Source of the DNA: Pseudomonas delhiensis
Lineage (GTDB): Bacteria > Pseudomonadota > Gammaproteobacteria > Pseudomonadales > Pseudomonadaceae
DNA length: 64,000 nucleotides
Assembly: GCF_900187975.1 (NCBI RefSeq)
Contig: NZ_FZPC01000006.1
Span: 1 to 64,000 of the forward strand
Direction: 5' to 3'
Numbering within the stretch: position 1 is the first letter of the stretch; the number at the start of each line of letters is the position of its first letter. This document shows positions 20,800 to 64,000 of this stretch, piece by piece. The notes beneath the pieces were generated by a model. That model made no database searches and had not been told where the DNA came from. It saw only the letters and a program-made list of their open reading frames with translations. A program made the translations under genes and the position numbers.

Positions 20800-21178
20800 T
20801 TCGCGAGCAAGCTCGCTCCTACGAAAAGCAAAAGCGCTTTTGCTCTGGCGTTTGGGACTTCCAGAGAAACCACCGAGCACACCGGAACGCCCCTTCAGAA
20901 GGCCGAGCGAAACCGGCGCTCAGGAGGTCATGCGACATGGATGTCGCGAGAGCCCCGATCAGCACAGGGACGTGCTGTCGGGGCGGGCCTCCGTGGTGGG
21001 GGAATTCGTGAGGGTAGCCCGGCTCCATCGGGCCCGTATGTCGGGGCAAGCCTTTTCGGTTACTTTTGTGGCGACTGACAAAAGTGACTCGCCCGAGGGG
21101 GCGAAACAAGAGACATCCGAGCACTCGGAGCGGCGCGCTACACCCAAACCCGACATCTCTGGGCTCCCGCGTTCGCGG
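20800..21178 (+). repeat. Long structured repeat, copy 1
   Basis: This 379-base unit shares about nine tenths of its bases with 63314-63688. It opens with a family B palindrome (TTCGCGAGCAAGCTCGC). Hairpins follow at 20827-20844, 20952-20984 and 21060-21087, with a CGCCC/GGGCG hairpin just after. Several stems keep pairing while their sequence differs from copy 2. Open frames cross it but are probably not genes. It fills most of the gap between the small secreted protein and ubiA. Confidence 0.85.
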
Positions 21179-63275: not shown

Positions 63276-63696
63276 CCGTCATTTCCGCGAACGCGGGAGT
63301 CCAATAACGGCGGTTCGCGAGCAAGCTCGCTCCTACGAAGAGCCGTGCCGCTCTTGCTTTTGGACTTCCAGAGAAACAACCGAGCGCACCGGAACGCCCC
63401 TTCAGAAGGCCGAGCGAAACCGGCGCTCAGGAGGTCATGCGACATGGATGTCGCGAGAGCCCCGCGCGGGCTACAGGGACGTACCCTCGGGGCGGGCCTC
63501 CGTGGCGGGGGAATTCGCGAGGGTAGCCCGGCTTCATCGGGCCCGTATGTCGGGGCAAGCCTTTTTGGTTCCTTTTGTGGCGTTTGACAAAAGGGACTCG
63601 CCCGAGGGGGCGAAACAAGAAACATCAACGCACTCGGAGCGGCGCGTTACACTCAAGCCCGACATCCTTGGGTTTCCGCGTTCGCGGAAATGACGG
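63276..63696. mobile_element. Candidate MITE-like element with 21-base terminal inverted repeats
   Basis: CCGTCATTTCCGCGAACGCG plus G at 63276-63296 is matched exactly in inverse at 63676-63696. The 421-base interval encloses copy 2 of the long structured repeat. It codes for no transposase. Copy 1 of the repeat lacks these outer arms, so they may be a separate palindrome pair rather than true element ends. Confidence 0.5.
63314..63688 (+). repeat. Long structured repeat, copy 2
   Basis: This 375-base match to 20800-21178 lies in the same orientation. Hairpins sit at 63338-63355, 63459-63493 and 63569-63596. It differs from copy 1 in stem bases that keep pairing and by a 2-base length change in one hairpin. 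It fills most of the gap between the MFS gene and the phospholipase D-type gene. Confidence 0.85.
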
Positions 63697-63742: not shown

Positions 63743-64000
63743 CTACAGCATCCTCTCCAGCCCGATGGCCCCGGCGATCCAGGCGTTGAAGCGGCGCCAC
63801 AGGCTGCCCGGCTCGTGGTGCAGCACCCGTGGGTGGCCGTCGATCTCGTCGACCCAGGTCAGCCGCGGGCGGCTGCCGCTGCGGTCGATGCGCACCTGGT
63901 AGCTGACGCTGGGCGACATCCCGGCCAGCGCCAGCTTGCGCGTCTGCTCCGCCAGTGCCGGGCTGTCGACGATGACGCCGACCTCGGTGTTCCAGATGAT
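63743..64000 (-). CDS. Phospholipase D-type family protein, C-terminal part
   Basis: The last 85 codons of a minus-strand gene run off the window edge. The segment NTEVGVIVDSPALAEQTR resembles the end of PLD-type (cardiolipin synthase-like, YmdC) proteins after their second HKD motif. The final residues LWRRFNAWIAGAIGLERML fit too. Its TAG stop is formed by the CTCCTACA end of a family B palindrome (63724-63748). The HKD motifs are outside the window. Confidence 0.65.
   Translation of the reverse strand: MIWNTEVGVIVDSPALAEQTRKLALAGMSPSVSYQVRIDRSGSRPRLTWVDEIDGHPRVLHHEPGSLWRRFNAWIAGAIGLERML

Follow-up and report, generated by a model that had tools for sequence, protein, structure and literature searches.

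A dispersed repeat of Pseudomonas with lineage-specific copies and a structured core related to TwoAYGGAY RNA

We analyzed a stretch of 64,000 nucleotides (nt) from Pseudomonas delhiensis (contig NZ_FZPC01000006.1, positions 1 to 64,000; hereafter the window), which belongs to a genome assembled in 81 contigs (G000). The window contains two copies of an intergenic repeat, in segments 20800-21178 and 63314-63687, which are in the same orientation and match at 88% over 374 bases when aligned to each other, close to the roughly 90% estimated by eye in an original prediction made from the sequence of the window. The first copy is located between convergent genes, a secreted-protein open reading frame (ORF) and ubiA, and the second between an MFS-type transporter ORF and a convergent ORF at 63743, with the gene names taken from a reading of the ORFs. 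Both gaps are full of repetitive extragenic palindromes (REPs), and both segments open with the REP TTCGCGAGCAAGCTCGCTCC, as had been described. The predicted extent of about 375 bases is correct for the matching segments and not for the element itself: about 60 bases at the 5′ end and about 30 bases at the 3′ end are interchangeable REP-type flanks that differ between copies, and the element shared by 30 copies of this genome, turned to one strand, spans from TTCCAGAG to about CTACACC. The dispersed repeat has no transposase of its own, in line with the prediction, and no terminal inverted repeats were seen by eye at the element ends in the window, where no search aimed at them was run.

The description of a two-copy element turned out to be true of the window only. 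Copy 1, used as the query against the same genome, had 50 matches: 40 that were 140-400 bp long and 10 REP fragments of 23-34 bp. Since one of the 40 is probably the 3′ half of a copy split by an insertion sequence (IS), the genome holds at least 39 copies, a number that is a lower bound because 40 of 465 first-look candidates were scored. The element of copy 1 is matched end to end by 13 of these copies at 91-100%. Further copies, the lack of which in any genome would have spoken against the prediction, were also found outside G000: with the core as the query, the repeat or its relatives were identified in 26 of the 56 genomes searched, G000 included. The window core had no match in four of the 25 congeners (own genome counted), namely G006, G013, G016 and G021, which could serve as natural controls for any phenotype of the repeat. 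An exact core pattern was recovered from at least 116 sequence stretches, the titles of which name Pseudomonas, Stutzerimonas, Pseudomonadaceae and Gammaproteobacteria. We conclude that the repeat family is real and widespread, and that it combines a TwoAYGGAY-like RNA with intragenomic mobility.

To describe the core, 176 nhmmer hits were collected, of which 150 were kept by their range on the model, yielding 146 distinct cores with a mean identity of 75%. These cores fold to a common structure, as predicted by RNAalifold, with a conserved core of about 220 nt (Table 1). For the covariation analysis, rows that were at least 97% identical or had more than 25 gaps were removed, which left 110 rows and 68 pairs. 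The null distribution was obtained from 40 simulations in which substitutions were reshuffled along a FastTree tree with the column rates kept, using a script of our own in the style of R-scape, not R-scape itself. Six of the 68 helix pairs covaried at E<0.05 over all column pairs, as compared to one non-helix pair (columns 2 and 6). Of the significant pairs, two belong to the GCCCGG hairpin, whereas hairpin 1, the hairpin 2 stem, the stem outside both hairpins and the 3′ hairpin contribute one apiece. No pair in the GGAGGTC/GGCCTCC stem reached E<0.05, while one pair of the stem outside it did, and the outer closing stem lacks covariation evidence because it is nearly invariant. Counts of paired cells do not provide independent evidence, because the structure was derived from the same alignment. 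Between paralogous copies of genome G110, entire base pairs are replaced by compensatory swaps in hairpin 2 and in the 3′ hairpin. The reading as a structured RNA thus holds up, with core stems that covary across the family, and the significant covariation in a deep alignment on which that reading had been made to depend was recovered.

Table 1. Features of the two repeat copies in the window.
Feature	Position	Strand	Basis or remark
REP (GTAGGAGCGAGCTTGCTCGCGAA type), 5′ flank of copy 1	20800..20823	-	Same REP type flanks RAYT-type gene of own genome
Copy 1, element proper (TTCCAGAGAAAC ... CGGAGCGGCGCGCTACAC)	20859..21144	+	Block common to 25 own copies uncut by IS, flanks differing
Outer closing stem of core, GCCCC/GGGGC	20889..21047	+	RNAalifold consensus
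Stem GGAGGTC/GGCCTCC enclosing both GGA hairpins	20923..20992	+	Sequence and consensus structure
RF01731 TwoAYGGAY core match	20925..20990	+	Rfam at relaxed threshold; 38.4 bits, E 1.5e-4 (below gathering score 43)
Hairpin 1, GCGACA-UGGA-UGUCGC, GGA 20939-20941 in loop	20932..20947	+	One pair A-U/G-C at E<0.05
Hairpin 2, GCCCCG..CACAGGGACGUG..CGGGGC, GGA 20968-20970 in loop	20952..20984	+	One stem pair at E<0.05
GCCCGG hairpin, GCCCGGCTCCATCGGGC	21017..21033	+	Two pairs covary at E<0.05 and another two at E 0.1-0.4
Position where one IS interrupts 11 sister copies elsewhere in the genome (none in window)	21048..21049		Own copies ending at contig breaks
3′ hairpin, GTTACTTTTGT/ACAAAAGTGAC	21059..21088	+	One pair at E<0.05; stem swaps pairs between G110 copies
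Terminal hairpin, TCGCCC-GAGG-GGGCGA	21089..21104	+	Consensus structure, no significant covariation
Copy 2, element proper	63366..63660	+	Alignment with copy 1 and own copies
Copy 2 hairpin 1, GGA 63446-63448	63439..63454	+	Sequence
Copy 2 hairpin 2 (GGGCTACAGGGACGTACCC, bulged), GGA 63477-63479	63459..63493	+	Sequence; absent from single-sequence minimum-energy fold
REP (GTCATTTCCGCGAACGCGGAAA) closing 3′ side of copy 2	63673..63694	-	Type and orientation follow 16/25 own copies

Copy 1 folds better than expected by chance on both strands, with z scores of -4.3 on the plus strand and -4.8 on the minus strand. At 60 pairs that were predicted from both strands, G-U combinations outnumbered A-C combinations by 206 to 118, and this excess favors the strand of the element that carries the GGA motifs as the folding RNA.

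The original prediction knew of no named family for the element, which is incorrect for the structured core: a related description exists in Rfam, the TwoAYGGAY RNA (RF01731). Rfam types this family as cis-regulatory. The family was also treated in a paper that we take to be by Gardner and Eldai. Passages of that paper already predict, without validation, that TwoAYGGAY binds CsrA (PMC4333381), and in passages of Weinberg 2010 it is described as a probable RNA from the human gut, gamma-Proteobacteria and Clostridiales (PMC2864571). Loci of relatives of the repeat were closer to the model, with 8 of 20 passing the cut-off and 13 of 20 matching at E <=0.01. At the level of the taxonomic family, RF01731 was matched in 63 of 119 genomes, with 43 over the cut-off; at the level of the class, it was matched in 17 of 274, with 13 over the cut-off, and none of 14 control genomes had a match. 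We refer to ten of 20 genomes with the P. putida REP pattern, among 398 genomes of one genus, as P. putida-type; these contained 78, 51, 40, 16, 13, 7, 7, 6, 1 and 0 matches, and eight of the ten were over the cut-off. Loop 1 of the window copies, AUGGAU, follows the AYGGAY loop rule and loop 2, AGGGAC in both copies, departs from it; the GGA is kept in both loops. Judged from their sequences, the window copies are a diverged relative of TwoAYGGAY and not a member, because they miss both the cut-off and one loop rule.

The likeness to TwoAYGGAY as published lies in two neighboring hairpins that a single stem unites and whose loops are of the type (C)AYGGAY(G). In contrast to that RNA, the domain is here contained within a repeat of about 290 nt (window) to about 900 bp (the P. 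putida-type genome G674) and is followed by an additional 3′ hairpin domain, and tens of copies are present in several genomes, whereas the passages on TwoAYGGAY include none on dispersed repeats. A chromosomal, intragenomically mobile repeat form of a TwoAYGGAY-like RNA therefore appears to be new. Two repeat families from the tables of Silby 2009 (PMC2718517), R200 (320 bp, 47 copies in SBW25) and R26 (352 bp, 20 copies in Pf0-1), resemble the repeat in length range, copy number and intergenic location, and passages of that study report a bias toward tail-to-tail genes for most of its repeat families. The table gives no structure for either of the two. R200 and R26 may be the same thing as the repeat.

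Within the scanned region, hairpins with a GGA in the loop and a stem of at least four pairs number two in 109, three in 16 and one in 21 of the 146 cores. Thus, 125 cores have two or more such hairpins and conform to the pattern of CsrA/RsmA-binding RNAs, which is A(N)GGA in a hairpin loop at two or more sites per RNA. At least 16 of the 21 one-hairpin cores, including window copy 2, carry GGGCUACAGGGACGUACCC, in which a bulge breaks the stem rule while the GGA stays in the loop; in the core of locus L103, the second GGA has been lost. Of the 125 cores that have at least two GGA hairpins, 104 show a spacing of 28-29 nt between the motifs. Across the 146 cores, the motif CANGGANG occurs 1.92 times per core on the GGA strand vs. 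0.24 times on the other strand, and the stricter motif [AU]CANGGANG[AU] occurs 0.96 times per core vs. 0.009 times in shuffled cores. We take the latter motif to be a form of the RsmE consensus. The known decoys CsrB, CsrC, RsmX, RsmY and RsmZ are single-locus, Gac-controlled genes with many GGAs. The repeat resembles these RNAs in having several GGA-loop hairpins that match the CsrA/RsmA motif, and differs from them in having two GGAs per copy and many copies.

The CsrA/RsmA consensus is given as RUACARGGAUGU in hairpin loops in passages of PMC7937890, which also report that RsmA, RsmE and RsmI from P. putida KT2440 all enrich RNAs adjoining copies of ISPpu8, as well as RNA from a putative ISPpu8 site described as “long palindromic”. 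In P. putida-type genomes, the element is carried as long palindromes, and it shares with the KT2440 sites, as described in those passages, the features of an intergenic palindrome and an IS target and, by prediction, of an Rsm-bound RNA. A difference is that ISPpu8 belongs to the IS4 family according to passages of PMC3056050, whereas the transposase genes identified in our analysis are IS481-like and IS5. Literature searches among open-licence PMC papers for a dispersed RsmA-binding repeat, for the present repeat family or for its polarity gave no paper naming such a repeat, with the exception of the ISPpu8 passages in PMC7937890.

We also compared the two window sites with the corresponding sites in relatives. 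The element was present at the ubiA site in none of 20 relatives, G010 included, and at the MFS-gene site in one of 20, which is G010. The ubiA gene of G010 is 98% identical to that of the window, and the intergenic gap at the first site differs as a whole from the gap in G010, so that no clean empty site with a target duplication can be read. The copies at the two window sites are lineage-specific, and the repeat is therefore likely to be mobile, which is in agreement with the non-autonomous mobile element suggested earlier. The structured RNA and the non-autonomous mobile element had been presented as alternatives; they are not, as features of both are combined in one element.

The 3′ side of the element is occupied by a REP of fixed orientation in 16 of 25 copies in G000, 18 of 20 in G110 and 18 of 19 in G117. 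The REP types that flank the element match those around the RAYT-type genes of G000 and G110. Such genes (PF01797) were identified in five of six genomes searched, a set that does not include G674. There are two in G000 (G000:C38:75481-75792 at locus L361 and G000:C29:8225-8446 at L364), and the gene at L361 is flanked by REP B (GTAGGAGCGAGC-type), a type that both window copies carry in their 5′ flanks. According to passages of PMC3116915, REP doublets forming hairpins (REPINs) and bacterial interspersed mosaic elements (BIMEs), which are connected with RAYT, are like the repeat in being intergenic, REP-associated and arranged in inverted pairs; in the repeat, however, the core is a conserved structured sequence of about 220 nt rather than a short spacer, and inverted REP doublets are exceptional in G000. 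The REPIN arrangement, with REP A in plus orientation to the left and in minus orientation to the right within 220 bp, was observed only in L002 and L012 among the 25 G000 copies, and in G110 the layout was seen in part, with a left REP E+ in 7 of 20 copies. REPIN packaging was therefore rejected as a general rule.

In 116 named loci, neighboring elements at most 700 bp apart were arranged head-to-head in 36, tandem in 7 and tail-to-tail in 1 of 44 pairs, counts that are not independent because some of the loci come from the same strain. The head-to-head partners in these loci are 62-93% identical and their spacers recur between loci. An additional set of 120 loci (L031-L151, 13 from the own genome) contained 19 head-to-head and 3 tail-to-tail pairs. 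In G674, all 36 neighboring pairs are head-to-head (76 listed of 78 arms), and at four loci they make up a composite that is about 900 bp long, contains REPs at its center and has the inverted ends TGTATGCGCATTCATT and AATGAATGCGCATACA. Pairs in G802, G479, G564 and G581 read “+ then -”, against a uniform head-to-head pairing. An autonomous version with a gene between head-to-head arms was dismissed, as there were only two such pairs more than 700 bp apart in the 116 named loci; a recurrent gene was not sought.

The orientation of the arms in G674 follows replication almost without exception. Among the arms scoring at least 48.6 bits, those at all 19 sites up to 3.086 Mb are on the minus strand and those at all 15 sites from 3.382 Mb are on the plus strand, with 34 arms of 47.4 bits as their mirror image and 8 listed lower-scoring arms outside both classes. 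The better-scoring arm points in the expected direction in 34 of the 36 pairs, and the two exceptions have a weakened arm. If divided by exact genome halves, the strong class consists of 0 plus and 17 minus arms in one half and of 15 plus and 2 minus arms in the other. The motif GGGNAGGG, which presumably is the KOPS motif, switches strand between 3.02 and 3.15 Mb, and the GC skew agrees in 11 of 13 samples (those at 0.9 and 5.9 Mb disagree). In G525, the listed arms that score 46.9 or 42.6 bits, 15 of 15, are on the plus strand up to 3.22 Mb and on the minus strand from 3.53 Mb; the skew changes direction between 3.12 and 3.70 Mb, with agreement in 7 of 7 samples. The replication polarity in G525 is only suggestive, because these two score classes were defined post hoc, six listed arms with other scores did not enter the count, and in two pairs the uncounted arm scores higher; a description of this genome as strictly polar was rejected. 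Among the matches listed for G110, the orientation is biased (p 0.001), with 3 plus and 9 minus in the first half and 8 plus and 0 minus in the second.

The neighbors of the repeat, as called by a simple gene caller based on the GC content at third codon positions (GC3), are convergent for 14 of 23 own copies (2 of 25 uncalled) and for 55 of 87 further loci (32 of 119 uncalled; L032-L151, 12 from the own genome). By comparison, convergent pairs made up 41 of 213 neighboring gene pairs in background samples (twenty of 20 kb each, from G674 and G525) and 8 of 45 in the window.

Taken together, the reading that we favor, as about an even call, is that of a repeat scattered over the chromosome, with copies that are specific to lineages and hence likely to be mobile; its core would be a structured RNA that likely binds RsmA/CsrA dimers and would act as a scattered decoy. 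Transcripts would be produced by read-through from the flanking genes, given that the copies in the own genome and in congeners that could be called are mostly located between convergent genes. Each copy would bind one RsmA dimer through its two GGA-loop hairpins, and the net effect would be a titration of RsmA; for the window copies, both expression and RsmA binding are inferred. The copies in G674 may have spread by single-strand (HUH/RAYT-like) transposition on replicating DNA, as pointed to by their near-strict replication polarity together with the REPs inside the composite. According to passages of PMC6006769, the HUH transposases in the IS200/IS605 group work on the template of the lagging strand, which makes transposition of single-stranded DNA (ssDNA) the simplest reading of this polarity.

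Several observations weigh against the decoy reading. The conserved RNA-like structure claimed for both copies stands on the z score of copy 1 and on the covariation in the family, and is weaker for copy 2, which alone folds modestly (z -2.7) and differently, with a minimum-energy fold that lacks hairpin 2. Both strands of copy 1 fold significantly, so that folding energy alone does not pick RNA over DNA. Neither window copy gave an Rfam hit at gathering level, none of 20 own loci, copy 2 among them, reached the RF01731 cut-off, and G000 as a whole gave no RF01731 match in the genome scans of the family and the class. CsrA was identified in 28 of 28 genomes tested, with or without the element, so its co-occurrence with the element is uninformative. 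The link between the Rsm-bound ISPpu8 sites of KT2440 and the element is strong but unproven; if the KT2440 palindrome were the element, RsmA binding in vivo would already be on record. The convergent placement was lower in the 116 named loci, with 26 of 64 called (52 uncalled). Pairs in G525 are both head-to-head and tail-to-tail, and among the matches listed there was no orientation bias in G117 (p 0.39) or in two congeners of the window genome, G008 (p 0.29) and G003 (p 0.59). The RAYT route is weakened because G003 carries elements yet has no match to the PF01797 transposase, and because few single copies in G000 (2 of 25) are bracketed by a pair of inverted REPs.

The main rival explanation, which we hold to be a possible though clearly less probable one, is a mobile element that acts purely at the DNA level, similar to a miniature inverted-repeat transposable element (MITE) or a REPIN, in which the hairpins and GGA loops would be recognized as ssDNA by a transposase and would have no RNA function. 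It would account for the lineage-specific sites, the 3′ REP of fixed orientation in three genomes, the head-to-head pairs and the G674 composite with its inverted terminal sequence, and for the near-strict polarity in G674, as expected for transposition of ssDNA from the lagging strand according to the same passages (PMC6006769). What argues for an RNA instead is that the CsrA consensus persists in both loops despite indels and turnover of the stems, and that G-U exceeds A-C on one strand; moreover, no enzyme has been tied to the element as its mobilizer. An improbable explanation is that the element serves as a bidirectional 3′-end element between convergent genes, either a terminator or an mRNA stabilizer, as has been argued for REPs. 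The convergent bias of the neighbors and the strong predicted folding on both strands would fit such a role, which leaves unexplained the GGA loops at fixed spacing, the multi-branched conserved core and the head-to-head pairing, and by sequence there is no T-run directly after the terminal hairpin of the core, for which no terminator scan was run.

Even less probable is a chromosome-organization signal that is read in one direction along each replichore, a suggestion of the original prediction that is weak overall, although we do not dismiss it for G674. The polar pairs and strong arms of G674 with the nearby switch of GGGNAGGG, the bias in G110 and the polar arms of the post hoc classes in G525 are in its favor. 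On the other side are the uncounted arms of G525, some of them higher-scoring than their counted partners, the lack of bias in G117, G008 and G003, the two window sites that are not conserved between close species, the four of 25 congeners that show no copy and the variation from 0 to 78 RF01731 matches in the ten P. putida-type genomes. A remnant or carrier of protein-coding sequence is next to negligible and was rejected: long chance ORFs cross the copies on both strands, but no frame is open in more than 49 of the 146 cores and the core lengths modulo 3 are distributed as 67/43/36.

If the decoy reading is correct, a mobile element would tune a global post-transcriptional regulator, and models that count only RsmX/Y/Z as decoys would miss a reservoir that varies between strains. 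The Gac/Rsm system governs secondary metabolism, biofilm formation and biocontrol traits in Pseudomonas. We suggest, as a tentative extension, that the mobile repeat multiplies RsmA sites into a transposable decoy array, which would be replication-polar in at least one lineage, provide a landing pad for unrelated IS and, by its copy number, set the Rsm set-point of a strain. The TwoAYGGAY RNA, and perhaps some repeat families of P. fluorescens, would then gain a shared identity. The replication-polar copies in G674 offer a ready system for studying how non-autonomous elements spread on replicating DNA.

Plasmid or phage cargo was rejected, since blastn searches (E 1e-5) with the window core gave no match in 72,556 plasmid or 50,697 phage records. 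A short core pattern was matched by 10 stretches in viral contigs, several of which were within 300 bases of a stretch end. The G674 composite gave six plasmid hits as the query, all of which are at query positions 894-1051 under genes annotated as dehydrogenase or oxidoreductase and were therefore taken to represent a flanking gene.

The repeat is also a target of IS. In eleven copies of G000, the element is cut short by the end of a contig, always at the same position and with one IS end attached (91 matching bases in ten of these copies and 48 in the other). These copies are found at the ends of contigs C12, C24, C27, C28, C29, C38, C48, C62, C63, C66 and C73 of G000 (L370), and contig C72 holds the matching right IS end, the assembly being split where the IS interrupts the element. 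The IS end resembles the end of an IS481-like copy in locus L401 of G674, where an ORF of 392 amino acids (aa) (L401 1666-2844), with a best match to an IS481 family model (203 bits, cut-off 224), is inserted at the equivalent position of one arm. Another arm in G674 is interrupted by an IS5-family ORF of 283 aa (L409 388-1239; 297 bits, cut-off 110). A plasmid search with the IS of the own genome recovered only a 45-bp match in two Cupriavidus plasmids, which is not informative.

A few other genes were observed next to the repeat. The small RNA gene RgsA (RF00628) is located at L008 1980-2178 on the minus strand, directly downstream of a copy of the element in G000. A C4 antisense RNA and its target motif, below the cut-off, were identified at L034 2292-2515 in G008, near a tail-to-tail element pair, and a selenocysteine tRNA gene (L405 1117-1208) adjoins an element copy in the P. 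putida-type genome G531. Positions 1-78 of the window represent the 3′ part of a 5S rRNA gene.
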